The notes beneath the pieces were generated by a model. It was not told the DNA's origin. It did no database searches and saw only the letters and a list, made by a program, of their open reading frames with translations. Source: a virus. From it: a stretch of DNA of 38,482 bases. Shown piece by piece: positions 962-26,943 of the stretch (positions within the stretch are counted from its first letter, which is position 1; the number at the start of each line of letters is the position of its first letter). Location: positions 1-38,482 of IMG/VR virus record IMGVR_UViG_3300033141_001674; one strand, 5' to 3'. The position numbers and the translations under genes are program-made.

Positions 962-1537
962 TTATTCTTCCGCCCTATCTGCATAGCGAATCTTTAACGC
1001 CTCGACCTGTTCATCGTAGAAAGCCTTATGCATCTGCGCCGCCGTCGCCTCAGCCATCTGACCAAGGCCCTCGTAAACCTTCCAGCAGACACCTTCGATA
1101 ATCGCCTCCTTGAAGTCATCGCTGAAGACGATGGTATCCACGTCGGAAGTCTCGTAGGCATGATAGATCGTTAGCCCCGTTTCAGCCGATGCTATGGGAT
1201 GAACGTAAATGGAATCGTTGAAAATGGCGAAGCTGTTAGGTGTACCTTCGATGGTATCAGCGCTCAATCGGGTTAGAAACTCCGGAAACGTGAGCTTGTC
1301 CAGCTTGACCTTCGTCACCGTGATAGTCACGCCACGAAGCGGGCGACGATACTCCGACGGCAGCGCAACGGTATGCCCACCGGCGGAAATCGTCACCGTA
1401 TTGGACTTCTCCAAAAACGGCCACTTGGTAGACAGATCCAGCAGGACCGCCGCCAACTCATCATCCACATCCGCCAGAGTTGTCCGCGTAGTCCGAGCCT
1501 TCACTTCCGCCAGAACAGCATCTTTGGTGATCGCCAT
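962..1537 (-). CDS. head-tail connector / adaptor-like protein
   Basis: This 191 aa protein starts at ATG 1537 behind a GAGGTTTTGCT spacer. An N-terminal helical segment (residues 1-40) is followed by a beta-rich stretch containing ALPSEYRRPLRGVTI (about 58-72), then a C-terminal helix pair ending in ADRAEE. Layouts of this kind occur in adaptor or head-completion proteins that sit beneath the portal of short-tailed phages. The placement after capsid and decoration genes agrees with that. The family is inferred from context and general shape, not from a diagnostic motif. A stable hairpin lies immediately upstream. Confidence 0.65.
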   Translation of the reverse strand: MAITKDAVLAEVKARTTRTTLADVDDELAAVLLDLSTKWPFLEKSNTVTISAGGHTVALPSEYRRPLRGVTITVTKVKLDKLTFPEFLTRLSADTIEGTPNSFAIFNDSIYVHPIASAETGLTIYHAYETSDVDTIVFSDDFKEAIIEGVCWKVYEGLGQMAEATAAQMHKAFYDEQVEALKIRYADRAEE

Positions 1538-2497: not shown

Positions 2498-3619
2498 TTA
2501 ATCAGGATCTACGCAGGTATCCACAGTGATGACACCGTAATCTTCACCGTTGAATCGAGGTTTCCCGGCAACGTAAATTAGGTCAGTCGCCACGCCGGGC
2601 TTGCGTCCATAGTCGAACATTTTGGCGTACCAACTGGGGCGCTGAGCGTAAGCGTGAACACCGGCTTGGGCACCCAGGAACAGCGCACGAGCAATACTCA
2701 CAGTATAGGTCGCATTAGCCGAATCGCCGGATTCAAAGTATGTCTCCGGACCATTACCAGCCGCGCCCGTACGAGTCTGAATCGACTCGCTTTCGTGAAT
2801 GACCACACCATTCCAGATACCTAACGCGCCGGAGAAGATCGGGTTCTTGCGACCGCGAATGTTCGCCGCCTGCTGTGCCGCAAGCCACGCAGTCTCACCG
2901 CGCAGGGCCTTGGCCTGAAGGGGGTGAATAAGCATCACGTAATGGTCTTCACCGTCAACCTTCACCGGGCGAATCTTAGGGATCGCCGCTTGCGCCTTGC
3001 GCTTGATGATGTCGATGACCTTAGTACCGAACAGAAAATCCAAGTAATCGGTGGCATCATCTTGACCGATCGTCGCATCAGACGTACCGGTCGTAACGAC
3101 ACCGGCAGCAGTTTGACCGCCGTACCATTTCCTGTTATTGCTAGGCGACACCGCTGCAACAATCGTCCCGTCATCATCCCGAATTGCAGGATTGGCGAGA
3201 CCTGAGAGCGCAAGGAACGTATCGTTGTCGAACATGTTAGCGAGCCACTCCGACAATGCATCCTTGGCCTCGGCCATAAGATTGAAAACGGTTCGCTGCG
3301 CCGTCATCTTGCCCTTGAGCCTTACACCATTACCACGCTCGTGAACCGTCGTAGACCAATCATAGAGGGTCAAGTTTTCCTCATTGCCTTCGATTGTCCC
3401 ATCATCGCCAGTGCCCTGACCCTTCAACTGCATGCGCAGGCCAAAGGTGATCTTATCACCCTTGGATTTGGTCAGTTCGTTCTTGACTTGAATGATATTG
3501 CTGGCGGTTTCACCAACGAATTTGCCAAACCACATCTTCTTCAAGGCATCCCGAAACAGGGCCGCAGACCACACCTCTTTCGTTAGATTGTCATCACTTC
3601 TAAAAGCTGTATCAGCCAT
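2498..3619 (-). CDS. major capsid protein, N4-gp56 family
   Basis: The frame could start at 3670, but ATG 3619 (MADTAFRSDDNLTKEVW) is preferred: GAGAAAGGAAACTTAATC lies just upstream, and starting earlier would run into the terminator hairpin. The product is 373 aa. The beginning (TKEVWSAALFRDALKKMWF), the central GNEENLTLYDWSTTVHERGN and the long segment GEDHYVMLIHPLQAKALRG match the N4-gp56 type of HK97-fold capsid proteins. It forms the icosahedral shell. It is the first gene after a strong leader-terminator module, so its expression probably depends on readthrough or on a promoter not recognised here. Confidence 0.92.
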   Translation of the reverse strand: MADTAFRSDDNLTKEVWSAALFRDALKKMWFGKFVGETASNIIQVKNELTKSKGDKITFGLRMQLKGQGTGDDGTIEGNEENLTLYDWSTTVHERGNGVRLKGKMTAQRTVFNLMAEAKDALSEWLANMFDNDTFLALSGLANPAIRDDDGTIVAAVSPSNNRKWYGGQTAAGVVTTGTSDATIGQDDATDYLDFLFGTKVIDIIKRKAQAAIPKIRPVKVDGEDHYVMLIHPLQAKALRGETAWLAAQQAANIRGRKNPIFSGALGIWNGVVIHESESIQTRTGAAGNGPETYFESGDSANATYTVSIARALFLGAQAGVHAYAQRPSWYAKMFDYGRKPGVATDLIYVAGKPRFNGEDYGVITVDTCVDPD

Positions 3620-6738: not shown

Positions 6739-9264
6739 TCACATCGCCATTACACTAAGTTCGCTGCCTTCGCGATAGGCATCCTTGTAACTCCTACGCC
6801 TGCGCGGCAGGTCGGGCGAAATCCGATCCAGGGCATAGTTTCCCATGATCCAGGCGTCCGCCCGGTCGGGACTCCGACCCAGTCGCTTCTTGATGTCCTC
6901 TTTAGGCTCGATCACGATCCGCGTGTTACGAAAATGGTATCGCGGTGCACACAGTTGCCGCCTCAATTCCAAATCGTCATGCTTCAATTCCACATCGCCC
7001 GCTGCTAAATCCTCCGCCGCCTTCCACCACATCTCAGCGCGGACGTTGTGAAACTTCGCCAGGTTGTTCGACTTTGCGGCGGAATTAATCTCGATAACCT
7101 CATATTGGTCCCCGGCCATCTGTCGAAGTTGATCCACCACTCCACCGCCCACGCCGTCACCATCTACCACGACGGCCTTTACCTTCCGCTCCAAGGCCGT
7201 CACATGCAGAAGATTCGCCGTATGCACCAAGTCTTTCTTGCCGTAAATCTTCTCATCAAGAATGTCCGTCTCTTCCATGTAGTAGATGACGGTCTCATCG
7301 TCGCCGAATCGGGCAACGTCGCAGGCCAGCAGCCGCCGCTTGTAGGGCTTGTGGAAAGTCACTTCCGCCGCGTTGCGCAGCCATGCGGCCTGTATGACCT
7401 GATCCGTACCTTCCAATACATCCCAGGAACCATATAGATATGCCTCGATCAATTCGGGACGATGCTTGAAACTATCCTTCAACTCGTCGACATATCCTTG
7501 AGGCAACCAGGGATTATCAGCAGGCAGCGATTGAACGAACCGCCGATCAGCCGTAGGCTTATCGATGAATTCTTCTTTCAAAAAAGAGGCAGCGGGATTC
7601 GCCGTGAACAACCCCTTGGGCGGGATCGTAATGTCATTGATGACAAGCCGTCGCGTGGCGCGAAGCGTGCTCACATCATCCCGCGTGCATTCTTCAGCCT
7701 GGTCGAGGAAGAAGAATGCATACTCTGCCGAATTGAACTTGCTGAGTGTTTCACGGTTATCAAGCCCACCGTAATCAAGCTTCACCTTACCACCTATGAC
7801 GATTTCCTTATCACCTGTCCGTAACTCATATACGTCAGATGGAATAGCCTTTATCCACGTCTCCAACGTAGTATCAGTGAAGTGCTTGGAAATCTTACGA
7901 CCCAAGAACCCAACTGGGATAGGGCGCTTGCATGATTCGATCTTGCAATCCTCAATGATCTTCAAACAAAGCCAAAACGACCACATGCAGCCCAGGTAAC
8001 TGTTATGAGTCGGAATCAATGATTTCCCTGCAAGGTAGAGACGGCTTGGGCTGTCGACTTCAATACATCTAACCGGGACCGTTGTAACTCGGTCACAGGC
8101 TACAATATATCGCCTTCTTGTGCGTAAAGTTGGATTGGTGTTCTGTCGAATCTTCTTGCGATAGAGTCTACATACAGGCAAGGCCGTGCAGAATTTTATA
8201 CGATATCTGTCCTTGCATCGCTTCCCCTTCAGCCAAGCCTCTGATTGCCGAATAGTTACCTTAATCCCCAATCCCACAATCAACTCATGCACGTCATGCG
8301 CAAGACGTTCGTCGGACAAACATATCTCTACGCTACCGCGATCCGTCACATGGCCATCTGAATCAATTAACCCCTGCAACAGCGATAGCCGTTGCTCGAT
8401 GGAACCTCTCTTATACTCGTCGGGAATATGCTTATTGCGATACAGCCCCATTGCTTTCAACATGACCGCAAGACCGCGAATGCCCCAACCAAACTTATTG
8501 GACTTCTGCTTTTTGAGGACAAAGCCATCCTTGCGTATCTCGTCGATTACTTGCAAATCCGGGTTAGTAATTGCTCCATTGCGAGCAGTGCCATCTCCTA
8601 ACCACACCCCTAACGTATAAGGCGGAATCGACAGATCGGCCTGTGGATATTGCAGCGGATCACATACTCGAACGGAATGATTTATAAACTCATTGTGATA
8701 TAAAGTTTGGGCTATCTCTTCCGTGGTCCTGATCCCGCCAGCATTGGATTGTTTGTATTTATATTGCCGTGCAGCATTCCGCAGAGCCAAGTCCGGTTTC
8801 TTACCAGTGCCACGCGAGGGGCGCCTCAATCTCCGGGCCGCTCTAAATTCTTCCGTATGCCTAGCATTATTGCATCGCTCTCGATACATTTCGGTAAACC
8901 ATTCATGCCCCTTGTCGGCAACAATCTCAGACCCATCGCTAAAACGAACCTTGTAACAATCATGCTTACGATAGACAGGACTACGCCCAATAACAGAGCA
9001 AGGAACACCGCGCTCATCAAAAACCTGGTTACCAACACGAATGGTCCCCATTGTTTTCCAACCATCTACCGTAAGTATTGGCGTATCAAGACTTGTGGCT
9101 TTCCCGCCTCCCTTTGCCCCGCCGAACAGAACTTCCTTAACAGACGGATTTTCCAGCAAATCCCATGCAGTGGTCTGCCGGGGAGACAGTTGGAATCGAA
9201 CAGCCGATTCAGTTGTTGCCGAACCGCTCGATTCTTGCGGCTGATTGTTCTGCATTTTGACCAT
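6739..9264 (-). CDS. terL: terminase large subunit with in-frame intein
   Basis: ATG 9264 is chosen over TTG 9279 and ATG 9255; none has a strong ribosome site, and the start lies inside terS. The precursor is 841 aa. Residues 56-421 are an intein inserted inside the Walker A motif GGAKGGGK|S; the spliced protein would be 475 aa, normal for TerL. The ATPase part keeps Walker B FFFLDQAEE. The RNase H-like nuclease keeps acidic residues in LACDVARFGDDE, VVVDGDGVGGG and SPDRADAW. It packages DNA into the procapsid by ATP-driven translocation and cuts at the end. Packaging therefore depends on splicing, because the P-loop is interrupted in the precursor. Confidence 0.95.
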   Translation of the reverse strand: MVKMQNNQPQESSGSATTESAVRFQLSPRQTTAWDLLENPSVKEVLFGGAKGGGKATSLDTPILTVDGWKTMGTIRVGNQVFDERGVPCSVIGRSPVYRKHDCYKVRFSDGSEIVADKGHEWFTEMYRERCNNARHTEEFRAARRLRRPSRGTGKKPDLALRNAARQYKYKQSNAGGIRTTEEIAQTLYHNEFINHSVRVCDPLQYPQADLSIPPYTLGVWLGDGTARNGAITNPDLQVIDEIRKDGFVLKKQKSNKFGWGIRGLAVMLKAMGLYRNKHIPDEYKRGSIEQRLSLLQGLIDSDGHVTDRGSVEICLSDERLAHDVHELIVGLGIKVTIRQSEAWLKGKRCKDRYRIKFCTALPVCRLYRKKIRQNTNPTLRTRRRYIVACDRVTTVPVRCIEVDSPSRLYLAGKSLIPTHNSYLGCMWSFWLCLKIIEDCKIESCKRPIPVGFLGRKISKHFTDTTLETWIKAIPSDVYELRTGDKEIVIGGKVKLDYGGLDNRETLSKFNSAEYAFFFLDQAEECTRDDVSTLRATRRLVINDITIPPKGLFTANPAASFLKEEFIDKPTADRRFVQSLPADNPWLPQGYVDELKDSFKHRPELIEAYLYGSWDVLEGTDQVIQAAWLRNAAEVTFHKPYKRRLLACDVARFGDDETVIYYMEETDILDEKIYGKKDLVHTANLLHVTALERKVKAVVVDGDGVGGGVVDQLRQMAGDQYEVIEINSAAKSNNLAKFHNVRAEMWWKAAEDLAAGDVELKHDDLELRRQLCAPRYHFRNTRIVIEPKEDIKKRLGRSPDRADAWIMGNYALDRISPDLPRRRRSYKDAYREGSELSVMAM
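8002..9099 (-). mobile_element. class-3-type intein with LAGLIDADG endonuclease
   Basis: The insert is 366 aa. It begins ATSLDTPILTVDGW, so residue 1 is Ala rather than Cys or Ser, and ends IPTHN followed by extein Ser. Block B has GHEW with Trp at intein position 67. Block F has VRCIEVDSP with Cys at 345, and the end has Thr364-His365-Asn366. Ala1 with the Trp-Cys-Thr set is the published signature of class 3 inteins, in which the block F Cys starts splicing. Two dodecapeptides, YTLGVWLGDG (161-170) and LLQGLIDSDG (240-249), mark an apparently intact homing endonuclease. The site is the P-loop of TerL, a conserved target. Confidence 0.92.
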
Positions 9265-9691
9265 ACGTTTTTTCAACAACGATTTTCACGCCGCCCGTAA
9301 CAGCAACATCCTGACGATTGCTCCATCGTAAGCGGTTGCGATTCGTCAGCCAAAGAGTTATCGCCTGTATACTCGGTTGAACTTGTTTTGTGACGATCTT
9401 GCGACCGACGAGATCGCCGTCCTCGTCGAATTTTTCCGTAACCTCGTCATACTCATAACCCAGGGCGATCTTCTTCAGCGCCCCCTCGATCTGGGTCGTG
9501 TCGTATTCGTCCATCCCGCGCAAGACCGCCTTAGCGAACTCAGGATACTCACGCAGCCAATCGTCAATCTCGTCCTTGCTTACATCGAACAACTTACCCA
9601 GATGCGCCCTGTCAAAACCTCCGGCAGAAGCAACGTAAGCTTGCCTGCAATACTCAGGCTTGTACTTGCTGATTGTGTCTGTTTCAGTCAT
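9209..9691 (-). CDS. terS: terminase small subunit
   Basis: The 160 aa product starts at ATG 9691 and ends inside terL, a normal overlap. The N-terminal 60 residues contain a helix-turn-helix: YCRQAYVASAGGFDRAHLGK, then LFDVSKDEIDDWLREYPEF. This resembles the DNA-binding part of many TerS proteins. The middle (GALKKIALGYEYDEVTEKFD and QPSIQAITLWLTNR) matches the usual oligomerisation core. It would recognise packaging sites and feed DNA to the TerL-portal motor. Direct adjacency to terL supports the call. Confidence 0.88.
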   Translation of the reverse strand: MTETDTISKYKPEYCRQAYVASAGGFDRAHLGKLFDVSKDEIDDWLREYPEFAKAVLRGMDEYDTTQIEGALKKIALGYEYDEVTEKFDEDGDLVGRKIVTKQVQPSIQAITLWLTNRNRLRWSNRQDVAVTGGVKIVVEKTYGQNAEQSAARIERFGNN

Positions 9692-16488: not shown

Positions 16489-17280
16489 TTAAACGGGTAC
16501 TTCTTCCACTTGTTCGCTTTCTTCTTCGGTGTTGATATAATCTTCTTGCGTGATTTGCACCTGGCGCAGAGTCGGTTCCAGCTGTTGTTTCAGCGCCTTG
16601 AAGAACTCCGACTGCTCCGGTGAAAGGTCGCAGACGACTTCCAGGTTGACCTTGGCATATTCGATTCCCGCCTTGTTCTTGTCTTTTTCAAGCGAGAACC
16701 GTGTCAAGACCGACCAGAATGGCCTGCCGTATGCAGCGAGCCGGCGAAGCATGAACTCCTTGGCAGCCGCTAGAGAGGTAGGAGGCAGCGTGAGAACAAC
16801 TGGCAGGAGTGACTCATCCCGCATGATGAACAACTGTTTCATCTGTTTGCACGCCTGTCTTCGTCCGCCCTTGGGATCGGAGCCGAACTGAGCGAGCGGG
16901 CATTTGGCGCATTGGCCGCCTGGTGTCCCGATTCCGATTTGTCCGTCGTCGCTGGTGCAGTCGGGTGGGGAACCACCGCCGGATTCCTCCATGCCCTCTT
17001 GCCAGTATGCCCGACCGAGCTTATGGAAGATGATTACACCTTCAAAACTCTTGGCGGGCACTTCGCCGTTACGGGTGGGCAGTGTCCAAGCGATCCCGCC
17101 GCCTGATGGAATCTTGATCCTATCAAGGTCGAAGGGGGTAAGCCCTTCGCTCCCGACGTTCTCGGCAATGATTGCCGACAGCGTTTCGGGATTCGCCTTG
17201 AGGATCGCAAACTCCCTGTTTTCAATTACTGCCAGTGCCGCCTGTTTGCTCTTGATCTTTTTCCCGTTTCCGTTAGCCAT
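16489..17280 (-). CDS. zinc-binding phage protein, ssDNA-binding candidate
   Basis: The 263 aa product starts at ATG 17280 after AAGGAGAAAGAAC. A four-Cys site (Cys108, Cys124, Cys127, Cys144; GGQCAKCPLAQFGS) sits in the middle, between beta-rich halves. The C-terminus is acidic (EEESEQVEEVPV), as in many ssDNA-binding proteins, where such tails recruit partners. I recall similar Cys-containing proteins in phage replication modules, where gp32-like roles have been proposed, but no functional motif proves it. It precedes the primase and follows the RAMP-like gene cluster. Confidence 0.65.
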   Translation of the reverse strand: MANGNGKKIKSKQAALAVIENREFAILKANPETLSAIIAENVGSEGLTPFDLDRIKIPSGGGIAWTLPTRNGEVPAKSFEGVIIFHKLGRAYWQEGMEESGGGSPPDCTSDDGQIGIGTPGGQCAKCPLAQFGSDPKGGRRQACKQMKQLFIMRDESLLPVVLTLPPTSLAAAKEFMLRRLAAYGRPFWSVLTRFSLEKDKNKAGIEYAKVNLEVVCDLSPEQSEFFKALKQQLEPTLRQVQITQEDYINTEEESEQVEEVPV

Positions 17281-17328
17281 TGTTCTTTCTCCTTGTTTTT
17301 TGATCCTTGGTCCTTGTTCTTTGTTAAA

Positions 17329-17757
17329 TTACGCTGACTTCTTGACCCCGGCCCTGAACTGCTCATAGATTTCCACGAAGTCTTTGATGCTGTCCGGCAG
17401 GATCGGCAGGCCCGTTGTTTCGTCCAATTCACATTCACGCACCCTTGCCGCTAGTTGGGTTGCGTTGACGTTATCTTTCACCAGGAACGTCCAATTCTCA
17501 TCGCCGCAGGCCTTCAGAGCTGCGCACATGGCCTCTTTGTCACCGTTCTTGGGTCCAGCCCACAATTTGCGGATCAGATGGATGGTGTGTCCGTCGATGT
17601 TGAGTGACTGTACACCTTCAGCCTGGAACTGTTCGACGATCTGAGGCTCCAGGTCAGCCAATCTTGCCTTGGTGTCCTTGAGCTGTGTTTCCAATGCTCG
17701 TTTCTTTTCGGTCAGCTTGACGAAGTCGCCGATTCTCGTTCGTGTTGCTAGTGGCAT
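17329..17757 (-). CDS. early phage protein with N-terminal coiled coil (142 aa)
   Basis: ATG 17757 follows CGAAAGGAAAAAATC. Residues 10-50 form a charged helix (KLTEKKRALETQLKDTKARL) like a short coiled coil. The rest is mixed, with QSLNIDGHTIHLIRKLW and a helical C-terminus ending GVKKSA. This type of small protein is common beside phage recombination or ssDNA-binding genes, but I cannot name it. Its 5' untranslated region contains an 18-unit GGCNN array ending 30 bases upstream of the start. Confidence 0.75.
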   Translation of the reverse strand: MPLATRTRIGDFVKLTEKKRALETQLKDTKARLADLEPQIVEQFQAEGVQSLNIDGHTIHLIRKLWAGPKNGDKEAMCAALKACGDENWTFLVKDNVNATQLAARVRECELDETTGLPILPDSIKDFVEIYEQFRAGVKKSA

Positions 17758-17786
17758 GATTTTTTCCTTTCGTGTCAGTTAAAGTT

Positions 17787-17876
17787 CCTTGCCTTGCCGA
17801 GCCGCGCCTTGCCCGGCCCAGCCGAGTCGGGCCCAGCCCCGCCGCGCTTGGCCATGCCCAGCCTCGCCTCGCCACG
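17787..17876 (-). repeat. GGCNN pentamer array A (18 units)
   Basis: Eighteen consecutive 5-bp units of plus-strand form CCNNG, equal to CNNGG on the transcribed strand, stay in perfect register for 90 bp without any insertion or deletion. Only TCGGG (17827) and CTTGG (17847) break the fixed positions. The two middle bases vary freely (TT, GA, GC, CG, CA, CC, AT, TC, AC). The array lies between the RAMP-like gene and the ribosome site of the next gene. It is not a CRISPR array. Confidence 0.9.
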
Positions 17877-17882
17877 CATTAC

Positions 17883-18452
17883 TCAATTCTCTTTCCATTC
17901 AATCACCACAAATTTGCCGAACGGACCTTTGCACGCGGGCCGAAAGTCTCCAAGGCCAACACGCTTACCGGCAGCATCTATAATCTCTCGCATCAGTTTC
18001 AGGGACATCATCTCTGTATCGACGCTGAGCATAAACGATAACCGCCAGTCATTGAAACACGGACGATGACAGAGAATACGACCACCCGTCGATGGTATGC
18101 GGACGGCCCGCGTGTCAACCGTCCACGGCTCCTTGTGTTGAATTGAAATTTCCAGGCCGTCGATCTCAACACACGCCGGGATTATGGACGTCTTCTGGGT
18201 TGTGATCTTAGACTTGCCGTTCTTGAAAAATTGGCCTGCGTCGATAAGGCATCGAAACAGATTGGGTTGCGGGATCATGGGCTTGTCATTGTGCCCGATG
18301 TAAAGCCGTTCTGTCGCCTGCGTAGTAGGCGAGCCTCTGTCGCCAACCGATGAAAGCCTAGTTCCGTTCGTTGCCGACATCTGCGCCTTATCGGTGAAGC
18401 GATTGCAGAGCAGCGGTGTCGTTCCTTCAATAGTAATTTTTACACTTTTCAT
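17883..18452 (-). CDS. RAMP-like conserved phage protein, flanked by repeat arrays
   Basis: ATG 18452 (MKSVKITIEGTTPLL) follows AATCGAAAGGAACGTATT, so the longer in-frame start at 18506, which would fall in the repeat array, is rejected. The 189 aa protein begins with a beta strand, carries MIPQPNLFRCLIDAGQFF in the middle, and ends with a Gly-rich loop VGLGDFRPACKGPFGKF. The first strand plus that loop resemble the RRM-derived RAMP fold of Cas7-type proteins. This is an impression from pattern, not an alignment. The gene lies exactly between two GGCNN arrays. It could equally be a recombination or ssDNA-binding accessory. Confidence 0.6.
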   Translation of the reverse strand: MKSVKITIEGTTPLLCNRFTDKAQMSATNGTRLSSVGDRGSPTTQATERLYIGHNDKPMIPQPNLFRCLIDAGQFFKNGKSKITTQKTSIIPACVEIDGLEISIQHKEPWTVDTRAVRIPSTGGRILCHRPCFNDWRLSFMLSVDTEMMSLKLMREIIDAAGKRVGLGDFRPACKGPFGKFVVIEWKEN

Positions 18453-18475
18453 AATACGTTCCTTTCGATTAAGTT

Positions 18476-18555
18476 CCTTGCCATGCCGTGCCGAGCCCAG
18501 CCCCACCGCGCCCGGCCACGCCGCGCCAAGCCCTGCCGCGCCAGGTCCCGCCGCG
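18476..18555 (-). repeat. GGCNN pentamer array B (16 units)
   Basis: Sixteen 5-bp units of form CCNNG (plus strand) run in perfect register, with CCCCA (18501) and TCCCG (18546) as the only core changes; CCGAT follows as a partial unit. The array begins immediately after AAGTT, as array A does, and ends 23 bases upstream of the RAMP-like start codon. The array therefore sits in that gene's 5' untranslated region. Confidence 0.9.
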
Positions 18556-18562
18556 CCGATTT

Positions 18563-19876
18563 TTATTTCTGGGAAAATTGGTTTTGTTTTATGGTCTCAA
18601 GTATTGCATCAATAACGTTTTTTCGCTTCTCTAGCGCAGAGTAGATTCTTTTATCGATGGTGCCTTTTGCAATAAGCGATATGGAGGTTACCGATCTTGT
18701 TTGTCCTTGCCGGTGCAGGCGCGCCAAGCTCTGCTCGTAATCTCCAAGGCTAAAGCCCAGCGAATAGTAGATGCAGTACGCCGCCCGCGTGAGGTCGATG
18801 CCCAGCCCGCCGGCCTGGATTTGGACGGCAAGCACGTCGCCGGTGTCGCTTTCGGTCCACTCTTGTAGCTGCTTGATCCGACCGGAAATCTCATAGCTCA
18901 TTCGGCCTCGTTCCTTGGCGGCGAGGTGCACGCGGTCCAGGTCGTGCCGGAATCGGCAGAATACAACTACCGGCTCAGTCAATGGCAGATCTTCCAGCAG
19001 GTCTATCAGGGCTGCGTGTTTGGCGTTATCCACATCGAGGATTTTTTTATCTTCGGTTACGCCGAATCCGCTGGTGATCTGCTGTAACCGCAGCAGGCGG
19101 GCCAGTACATTGACGGCTGTAATCTTCCCCTCACCCACATCTGCGATGAACTCATGCTCTAATTCGTAATAGAGCCGCTTGGCCTCCGGCCCCAATTCCA
19201 CCGAACGCATTTCGTGGACCACTTCCGGCAGGTCCAGAACGTCATTCTTGGAAACTCGATGGGCGATGGAGTAGAATTTCGCGTTTAGCTCATCCATGTT
19301 CTGATATTCCAGGATTTCATGTCCGCCGTAGCCACCCATGATGGCGTAGCGGTTGCGGAAGCGGACGAAACTCGTACCGAAGATGCCCGGGTCGAGAAAG
19401 CGATATTGCGCATAGATATCCATCGGGGAATGTGGCATAGGCGTTCCAGTAAGCCCCACACGTCGTTTCGCTTTGGGGCTGAGCTTTGCCATGAAGCGGG
19501 ACATACGGCCCCCGGGCTGTTTCATTCGATGCGCTTCGTCAGCTACTACCATGTCCCAGTTGCGGCTCAGGATGATCTTCGCCAGATCGTCTCGCCACAC
19601 CGCCTCGTAATTGATGATGGCTGCGAATTTCCGGTTAAGCGCTCTGGCAAGTTCGAGCTTGTGATTCAATTCCCTTGCGCGTTGTGTTGTGCTACCTTTG
19701 CGGAGAGGGAGAACATCAATTGGTTTGCTTGCCCACTTATCAAATTCGCTTGGCCAAACAGTAATCACCGTCTTTGGGCATACGATTAATGTTGTGCGTA
19801 TATCAAAATTTACGATGTAGTCTACGATGCACCTGCTTTTGCCAGCTAAGTGCCCATATCGTAGGCCAACATGCAA
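18563..19876 (-). CDS. SNF2-family helicase, C-terminal piece (frameshifted)
   Basis: This frame opens at a TTG within the P-loop region and runs 437 codons. SF2 motifs present: Ia TLIVCPKTVI, II ADEAHRMKQ, III VGLTGTPMP, IV VVVFCRFRHD, V IQAGGLGIDLTRA and VI SLARLHRQGQTRSV. The natural upstream reading is in another frame: ATG 19893 with a near-perfect ribosome site (AAAGGAGGTGATGCA) gives MSHNAGCMLAYDMGT and then TAG. Five extra bases (TAGCT) separate that from the GKS of the P-loop. The gene is thus broken by an HNH gene and, separately, by this frameshift. Helicase activity is doubtful unless recoding occurs. Confidence 0.85.
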   Translation of the reverse strand: MHVGLRYGHLAGKSRCIVDYIVNFDIRTTLIVCPKTVITVWPSEFDKWASKPIDVLPLRKGSTTQRARELNHKLELARALNRKFAAIINYEAVWRDDLAKIILSRNWDMVVADEAHRMKQPGGRMSRFMAKLSPKAKRRVGLTGTPMPHSPMDIYAQYRFLDPGIFGTSFVRFRNRYAIMGGYGGHEILEYQNMDELNAKFYSIAHRVSKNDVLDLPEVVHEMRSVELGPEAKRLYYELEHEFIADVGEGKITAVNVLARLLRLQQITSGFGVTEDKKILDVDNAKHAALIDLLEDLPLTEPVVVFCRFRHDLDRVHLAAKERGRMSYEISGRIKQLQEWTESDTGDVLAVQIQAGGLGIDLTRAAYCIYYSLGFSLGDYEQSLARLHRQGQTRSVTSISLIAKGTIDKRIYSALEKRKNVIDAILETIKQNQFSQK

Positions 19877-21646: not shown

Positions 21647-21748
21647 TCATCTCGGTGACTCTGGCACGTTTGTGCTGATCCGGACCTGATAGGGGGAGAT
21701 CCAAAACCCTTCCGCATCACCGTGTTCTGTGTGAATATCAATTGTCAT
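21647..21748 (-). CDS. possible 33 aa peptide at the end of the hexamer array
   Basis: ATG 21748 lies within the last codons of the Gly-rich frame. The 33-codon product starts MTIDIHTEHGDAEGFW and ends VPESPR. The same frame continues upstream through the hexamer repeat as Ala-Thr/Ala-Pro, so the non-repetitive tail could also be the C-terminus of a protein translated in that frame. The non-repeat part looks like real protein, but there is no ribosome site. Confidence 0.35.
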   Translation of the reverse strand: MTIDIHTEHGDAEGFWISPYQVRISTNVPESPR

Positions 21749-22100
21749 CGTCGTAGCCGGAGCCGTCACCGTAGCCGTAGCCGGAGCCGGAGCCGTCGCC
21801 GGAGCCGGAGCCGGAGCCGTAGCCGTAGCCGTAGCTGGAGCCGGAGCCGTCGCCGGAGCCGTAGCCGTCGCCGTAGCCGTCGCCGTAGCCGTCGCCGTCG
21901 CCGTAGCCGCAGCCGTCACCGTAGCCGGAGTCGGAGCCGGAGCCGGAGCCGGAGCCGTAGCCGTAGCCGTCGCCGTAGCTGTAGCCGTAGCCGTCGCCGC
22001 AGCCGAAACCGGAACCGGAACCGTCGCCGTAGCTGTAGCCGGAGCCGGAGCTGTAGCCGGAGCCGGAGCCGTAGCCGGAACTGTTTCTTATGCTGTCCAT
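21738..22100 (-). CDS. Gly-Ser/Tyr/Asp low-complexity protein (120 aa)
   Basis: ATG 22100 overlaps the end of the preceding conserved gene and follows AAAGGTG. Nearly every second residue is Gly, and the alternating residue is Ser, Tyr or Asp (SGYGSGSG, YGDGYGYG), ending YDDDN. The DNA is an uninterrupted hexamer repeat, so all frames are open and openness is no proof of coding. Support comes from translational coupling and the ribosome site. If made, it would be an intrinsically disordered, possibly phase-separating or adhesive protein. Confidence 0.45.
   Translation of the reverse strand: MDSIRNSSGYGSGSGYSSGSGYSYGDGSGSGFGCGDGYGYSYGDGYGYGSGSGSGSDSGYGDGCGYGDGDGYGDGYGDGYGSGDGSGSSYGYGYGSGSGSGDGSGSGYGYGDGSGYDDDN
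21753..22080 (-). repeat. degenerate GGCNNC hexamer array (about 54 units)
   Basis: On the minus strand the unit is GGC followed by TCC, TAC or GAC, repeated for about 328 bp without loss of register. Core changes are few: AGC for GGC in several units, GGT in three consecutive units, and one TTC and one TGC. It shares the GGC core and the two variable bases with the pentamer arrays at 17787 and 18476 but has a period of 6. Confidence 0.9.
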
Positions 22101-25926: not shown

Positions 25927-26943
25927 ATGCCTACGTGGTATCGCCGTTATCTGCCTGTTGGGAGTCTCTATTTACGAGGACGTTTTTGGTGGTATGCCTT
26001 GCCGCTGCCCAATGGAGGGCGAAAGGTAGTTTCACTTAGGGTTATCAGGAAAACCGAAGCCGTGAGCTTAGCGCAAGAGCTCTATCGAAAACACTATCGT
26101 AATAATGAAGAACCCGTTTCGATTGAAGCGCTTCTTGCTGCTTTTGAAAGACACAATGCTCAAAGTCTTGACCGTGCGTACTTGAGAATACGGCAAAAGC
26201 GAATAGAGCGGTTCGTTAAGCATGCGAAGATTACTGACCCCGAATCTATTACCGCCAAAACAATTAATCGGTTCCTCGACGAACGCGCCCAGCATATTCA
26301 GCCAGGCACATTAGTCAATGAACGCGCTGCGATTAGTGCATGGTGTAAATGGCTGAAGTCACGAGGCCACATCAGTCGGAATCCTGTTCTGGATACCGAT
26401 CCGCCTCAGATTGGCGAGAAGGAAATCATCTATATGGGTCGAGATGAATTCAACAAAGCAATAGAAAAAGCCACGGAACTAAAGTTGTGGGCTGTGCATT
26501 TTGCGGCTTATCAGGCTTTACGTCGACATGAAATCGGACTGTTGAGATGGACAGACTTTGGACGAGATGCCAAAGGCCCCACGCTCAGAGTACGGGGTAA
26601 GGGGCGCAAAGGGAAAAAGAAGCTTATTACTCTACCGTTACATTCTAAGCTGATGCCGATCATAGAGAAGATCCCCCGCCAATACGAAACGGTATTCCCT
26701 CGCAGAGATTCCAAGTGGTGGGGCCAATATCTTGAACCCATTCGCAAGGTATGCCCTACCTTGATGAAGCGAGGTCAGGGTTGGCATACATTTCGTCGCT
26801 CTTTCGGGTCCATTTTGATCCAGGAGGGTGTCCGCGTTGAGGTGGTATCAAGATTGCTTCGCCATGCCAATATCGCTACGACCTTGAAATATTACGCGCA
26901 CCTTATACCACAGCATGGGCGAGAGGATCTGGAGCGGCTGTAA
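25927..26943 (+). CDS. int: tyrosine recombinase (phage integrase)
   Basis: The 338 aa protein starts at ATG 25927. The N-terminal half has an arm-binding-like start (WYRRYLPVGSLYLRGRFWWY) and a core-binding domain with RIRQKRIERFVKHAKI. The catalytic domain keeps all residues: Arg199 (QALRRHEIGLLRW), Lys225 (VRGKGRKGKK), His287 and Arg290 (WHTFRRSFG), His313 (LLRHANIATTL) and nucleophile Tyr323 (KYYAH). It inserts and excises the phage genome at att sites. It appears intact. The GTAGCG repeats upstream probably belong to its attachment or control region. Confidence 0.95.
   Translation: MPTWYRRYLPVGSLYLRGRFWWYALPLPNGGRKVVSLRVIRKTEAVSLAQELYRKHYRNNEEPVSIEALLAAFERHNAQSLDRAYLRIRQKRIERFVKHAKITDPESITAKTINRFLDERAQHIQPGTLVNERAAISAWCKWLKSRGHISRNPVLDTDPPQIGEKEIIYMGRDEFNKAIEKATELKLWAVHFAAYQALRRHEIGLLRWTDFGRDAKGPTLRVRGKGRKGKKKLITLPLHSKLMPIIEKIPRQYETVFPRRDSKWWGQYLEPIRKVCPTLMKRGQGWHTFRRSFGSILIQEGVRVEVVSRLLRHANIATTLKYYAHLIPQHGREDLERL

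Follow-up and report, generated by a model that had tools for sequence, protein, structure and literature searches.

Two GGYNN repeat arrays flanking a RAMP-family gene in a metagenomic phage very probably form a VIPR system

We report that a locus in the virus record IMGVR_UViG_3300033141_001674 (38,482 nucleotides, all of which were analysed and are henceforth referred to as the window) is very probably a VIPR system, carried by a probably temperate phage, in which two five-base repeat arrays would yield two vrRNAs that are coated by a small protein, Vipr, and lead it through their variable NN letters to double-stranded DNA, resulting in repression of a competitor. VIPR was described in a 2026 preprint as being based on a phage-encoded ancestral RAMP, Vipr (PMC13142463). 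There, a vrRNA consists of 9-16 YNNGG tandem repeats followed by a 3' tail and flanks the phage RAMP gene; the GGY triplets are the protein anchors on the vrRNA, and the NN pairs spell the DNA target, read as NNxNNxNN, so that binding to double-stranded DNA skips a single base in every unit and leads to repression of transcription, the targets being mainly competing phages and satellites (PMC13142463). RNA expression, co-purification, one-skip DNA binding and repression were demonstrated for the systems of SUSP1 and P. fulva (PMC13142463). A preliminary description of the DNA analysed here had stated that no described system with such a layout was known to its author, which no longer holds now that VIPR has been published: two arrays around a small RAMP gene are already known as a kind of system, though bench work covers few types. 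VIPR is the proposed ancestor of CRISPR effectors, and the locus in the window represents a deep clade with a minimal layout of one protein and two guides embedded in leaders. Its identification as a VIPR system follows from the association of arrays with vipr, from homology to the Vipr of SUSP1 and from the RAMP fold. The features of the locus are as follows:

17329..17757, minus strand: DUF7307 gene, Pam3 gp33-like (Pfam E 2.6e-16)
17758..17788, minus strand: tail of array 2, GGAACTTTAA...CGAAAGGAA, extending into the next gene's ribosome-binding site (presumed RNA extent)
17789..17878, minus strand: array 2, vrRNA-like, from the vipr stop codon to the next gene's ribosome site
17883..18452, minus strand: vipr, encoding a 189-aa RAMP-family Vipr protein (phrog_4652), between the two arrays
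18453..18477, minus strand: tail of array 1, GGAACTTAA...CGAAAGGAA, extending into the vipr ribosome-binding site (presumed RNA extent)
18478..18557, minus strand: array 1, vrRNA-like, 16 GGYNN units, with the helicase stop codon on one side and the vipr ribosome site on the other
18563..19876, minus strand: SNF2-type phage DNA helicase (phrog_62, E 1e-111), replication module

Both arrays lie on either side of the gene for the 189-aa protein, as the preliminary description had it, and their register is strict: the array pattern matched 26 times in the window and 0.00 times in dinucleotide-preserving shuffles of it. Read on the minus strand (18557..18478), the units of array 1 are GGC-GC GGC-GG GAC-CT GGC-GC GGC-AG GGC-TT GGC-GC GGC-GT, followed by GGC-CG GGC-GC GGT-GG GGC-TG GGC-TC GGC-AC GGC-AT GGC-AA. 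The count of 16 units given earlier for this array stands, but the 18 units given for array 2 resolve into a core of 17 (17873..17789), which includes an AGC and a GAC unit and is preceded in register by one TGC-GT unit. Across both arrays GGC predominates; the exceptions are two GAC units and single GGT, AGC and TGC units, and the units that are not GGY number three within the arrays themselves. With 16 and 17-18 units, the arrays compare with the about 9-16 GGY/NN units that flank the gene on the sense strand in VIPR. Each array starts close after a stop codon and ends 25-31 bases from the next ATG; their position just before ribosome sites had been correctly recognised, but the gaps of 30 and 23 bases proved to be 31 and 25. 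The common boundary that had been reported as AAGTTCCTTGCC corresponds to GGCAAGGAACTT on the minus strand, where it is the 3' boundary of both arrays, and matching sequence stands behind both; a short shared tail is also present in a related locus (L122; loci are referred to by L numbers). RNA folding gave z-scores of -1.6 for array 1 and -2.4 for array 2 and did not clearly predict a structured tail for either, and no sigma-70-like promoter was found ahead of the arrays. An Rfam search of the window returned no match, and hence no hammerhead ribozyme.

The 189-aa protein matches phrog_4652 (E 6e-19), whose function is entered as unknown in PHROGs and to which 54 of its 55 aligned homologues belong. 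Its sole significant relative by sequence in the PDB is 36pp, the 'SUSP1 Vipr protein', with an E of 2.5e-45 when a profile is used and of 1.2e-6 from the single sequence, and the match to the SUSP1 genome locus has an E of 7e-48. The AlphaFold2 model of the protein is of high confidence (pLDDT 91.7) and has Csm3/Cas7 RAMP subunits as its best structural matches in the PDB (Foldseek E 1e-6), with a Z of 13.2 to Csm3 over 163 residues, and a C-terminal glycine-rich motif (G-loop) is kept in the alignment, with G162, G166, G168, R171, G179 and F181 invariant or near-invariant. Judged by sequence and by the predicted structure, the protein is thus a homologue of SUSP1 Vipr with a Csm3/Cas7-type RAMP fold, in agreement with the earlier guess of a RAMP/Cas7-type fold, which an outcome lacking any RRM or RAMP fold would have contradicted.

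When IMG/VR DNA was searched with (GGCNN)8GGC, a pattern holding no protein information, at least 120 loci were obtained, and a six-frame search found a Vipr homologue encoded in 86 of the 120 array loci listed. For all 86 homologues the distance to an array is at most 888 bp, and 84 share the array's strand; the arrays in the listed loci mostly stand between co-directional genes. In contrast, only one of 50 control loci fetched by unrelated patterns encoded a Vipr homologue, and no array was near it. An iterated profile seeded with the window protein and run over the ORFs of the array loci gave 75 homologues, a count that takes in the window and two loci fetched by protein. Approached from the protein, 19 loci collected by similarity (from IMG/VR, phages, plasmids and SUSP1) had a (GGYNN)n array in sense orientation no more than 1 kb away in 15 cases, against none for the antisense control and four for the reversed pattern; among the four loci without a called array, L121 has a degenerate one visible by eye. 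Phages with a homologue include LESphi2, wV8, LittleE and several Gordonia phages, and Mycobacterium phage Mattes, found via its array alone, encodes one too. The expectation that arrays would recur beside homologues of 17883..18452, and not at positions unrelated to them, was therefore borne out in both directions, and the DNA pattern alone is an efficient means of finding VIPR loci in metagenomic phages, one that also supplies the guide letters for target mining. In the remaining 34 of the 120 listed loci (e.g. L007, L035, L062, L066, L110, L117 and L120) no vipr was detectable; several of these have the array at the locus end, so that vipr has perhaps been cut off, and the arrays could possibly be orphan vrRNAs, partners of diverged Viprs or chance coding repeats. 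A metallophosphoesterase gene, possibly an accessory nuclease, adjoins or lies near vipr in L043, L063, L088 and the plasmid loci L136 and L138. In phage wV8 (L125) an annotated direct repeat, DR_4, stands at 1411..1468 and 2804..2861, immediately before and after the vipr homologue and near its arrays, and the post-array sequences of this phage are near-identical to those of SUSP1.

In a tree of the homologues, the window protein groups with those of L121 (76% identical) and L122 (67%) in a well-supported clade distant from SUSP1 and LESphi2. Between arrays of this clade, identity is 0.65-0.86 at GGY and 0.16-0.31, near chance, at NN, and all 16 dinucleotides occur at NN among 339 arrays. The preliminary description had taken the fixed GGC as the part contacted by protein, which agrees with VIPR, and the NN as free filler, whereas the NN specify the target (PMC13142463). 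A purely structural leader is accordingly an incomplete account, because the NN are the message, and vrRNAs are a better interpretation of the arrays than leaders that do no more than bind protein. As far as they can be read from sequence, the features of VIPR agree with the window except for the vap gene, the structured tail and the target. Like the type II systems of Escherichia phage SUSP1 and a Pseudomonas fulva prophage (PMC13142463), the locus is phage-borne, encodes a homologous RAMP of ~20 kDa and has GGY/NN tandem arrays on the sense strand on both sides of the gene, with a tail sequence common to the two arrays 3' of them. It differs from them in its distant Vipr, in having no recognised vap1-like gene adjoining vipr, in its GGC units with GAC, AGC and TGC tolerated (those of SUSP1 are GGT-rich) and in its short tail overlapping the ribosome site, where the type II tail is longer with a predicted pseudoknot. 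With the Cas7/Csm3 backbone of class 1 CRISPR-Cas the protein shares its fold, the G-loop and the expected polymerisation on a guide RNA; however, the window has a single gene among phage replication genes instead of a cas operon, a five-base GGY/NN period instead of near-identical long repeats with spacers, and a two-base code per five-base unit instead of a contiguous spacer.

In the mechanism that we propose, the arrays would be transcribed, probably within the operon mRNA, into two vrRNAs; each RNA would then be covered by a Vipr polymer, with one subunit for every GGYNN unit that holds the GGY and leaves the NN exposed; the complex would bind double-stranded DNA whose strand reads NNxNNxNN; and, once bound, it would keep a rival phage, satellite or prophage from being transcribed. 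The array RNA, the first link, is supported by the sequence itself; the later links derive from the work on SUSP1 and P. fulva, and for the window clade both this way of functioning and the targets are inferred. Tentatively, the vrRNA and the mRNA leader may be one and the same element in this clade, in which no vap gene is recognised: as the short tail enters the ribosome site, Vipr assembled on an array could also prevent vipr and the gene after it from being translated, guide loading would then be coupled to autoregulation, and the TGC, AGC and GAC units may in addition mark a variant repeat code. We consider this reading rather unlikely.

Array ends 25-31 bases ahead of an ATG and a common tail entering the ribosome site would also be expected of a cis-acting leader, through which Vipr would regulate translation of its own mRNA and of the one that follows by binding the array in each, the clade then lacking DNA targeting, and like placement is found in other loci (e.g. 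L009, L088, L109 and L116). However, the arrays of many loci lie at a distance from start codons, or follow the gene in long multi-array tracts, the combination of kept GGY with chance-level NN is not needed by a leader that only binds, and the vrRNAs of SUSP1 are guides (PMC13142463); we regard this explanation as very improbable. Even less can be said for simple-sequence expansion, in which replication slippage produced the arrays and they carry no meaning. The short tandem period and GC-rich units speak for it, but slippage copies neighbours, yet the NN differ between arrays at chance level; shuffles gave no array match, and the near-absolute association with strand and gene is such that we count slippage as refuted by the link to vipr. 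The location within a replication module is compatible with a DNA-level binding array (iterons, an origin or a partition site) for a phage protein, but 84 of 86 cases on the sense strand of vipr, and a partner that is a RAMP, an RNA-binding fold, leave this with next to no credence. The reading as a VIPR system is the one that we retain; counted against it are the failure of the searches below to find a target or a skip-rule signal, the lack of a recognisable vap gene and of a sigma-70-like promoter ahead of the arrays, the distance from SUSP1 in the tree and the units that are not GGY.

Exact 10-unit patterns and 8-unit cores from the arrays were run against IMG/VR and genome contigs. Under the one-skip rule neither vrRNA yielded a natural target in IMG/VR and 84,980 genomes, as the matches cover little beyond the searched core: the 10-unit matches in L130, L131 and L132 end at or at most one unit past the searched stretch and were therefore judged to be chance, and the about 50 matches of 8-unit cores agree at no more than 8-9 of 16-18 further bases. 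L192, which carries vipr, was considered as a target and dismissed as coincidence, the target-like match being 5.6 kb away and confined to the core. When skip lengths of 0-3 were compared using 339 arrays in 1.1 Mb, a database too small to give more than little power, the result did not differ from shuffled NN. The missing matches would be explained if the collections do not contain the targets or if the cores used mismatch them.

The gene at 17329..17757 is probably a bystander, since no homologue of its gp33-like product was found near other arrays in the listed loci; its candidacy as a system partner was rejected for the same lack of recurrence, and the suggestion that arrays recur upstream of its homologues found no support. 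A helicase like that at 18563..19876 occurs near vipr in two other loci only, and it is probably not a vap. A vap accessory gene is typical of VIPR without being universal. Two neighbour families of about 160 aa are common in other vipr loci, and no vap gene was recognised in the window, whose neighbours fall in no recurrent cluster of vipr neighbours apart from the helicase (three loci including the window). The record also contains portal, major head protein and terminase genes, and an integrase at 25927..26943, from which the phage is probably temperate. Elsewhere in the window, a 120-aa ORF (21738..22100, minus strand) consists of about 54 six-base units (GGCNNC-like) encoding a Gly-Ser/Tyr/Asp dipeptide-repeat protein, with no convincing family in Pfam or PHROGs. 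The leader of the gene at 16489..17280 (minus strand) contains, at 17290..17325, five loose copies of the seven-base unit TCCTTGT (plus strand), a second kind of repeat immediately ahead of a ribosome site. A LAGLIDADG-type homing endonuclease domain, probably an intein, splits the large terminase ORF (6739..9279, minus strand, 846 aa).
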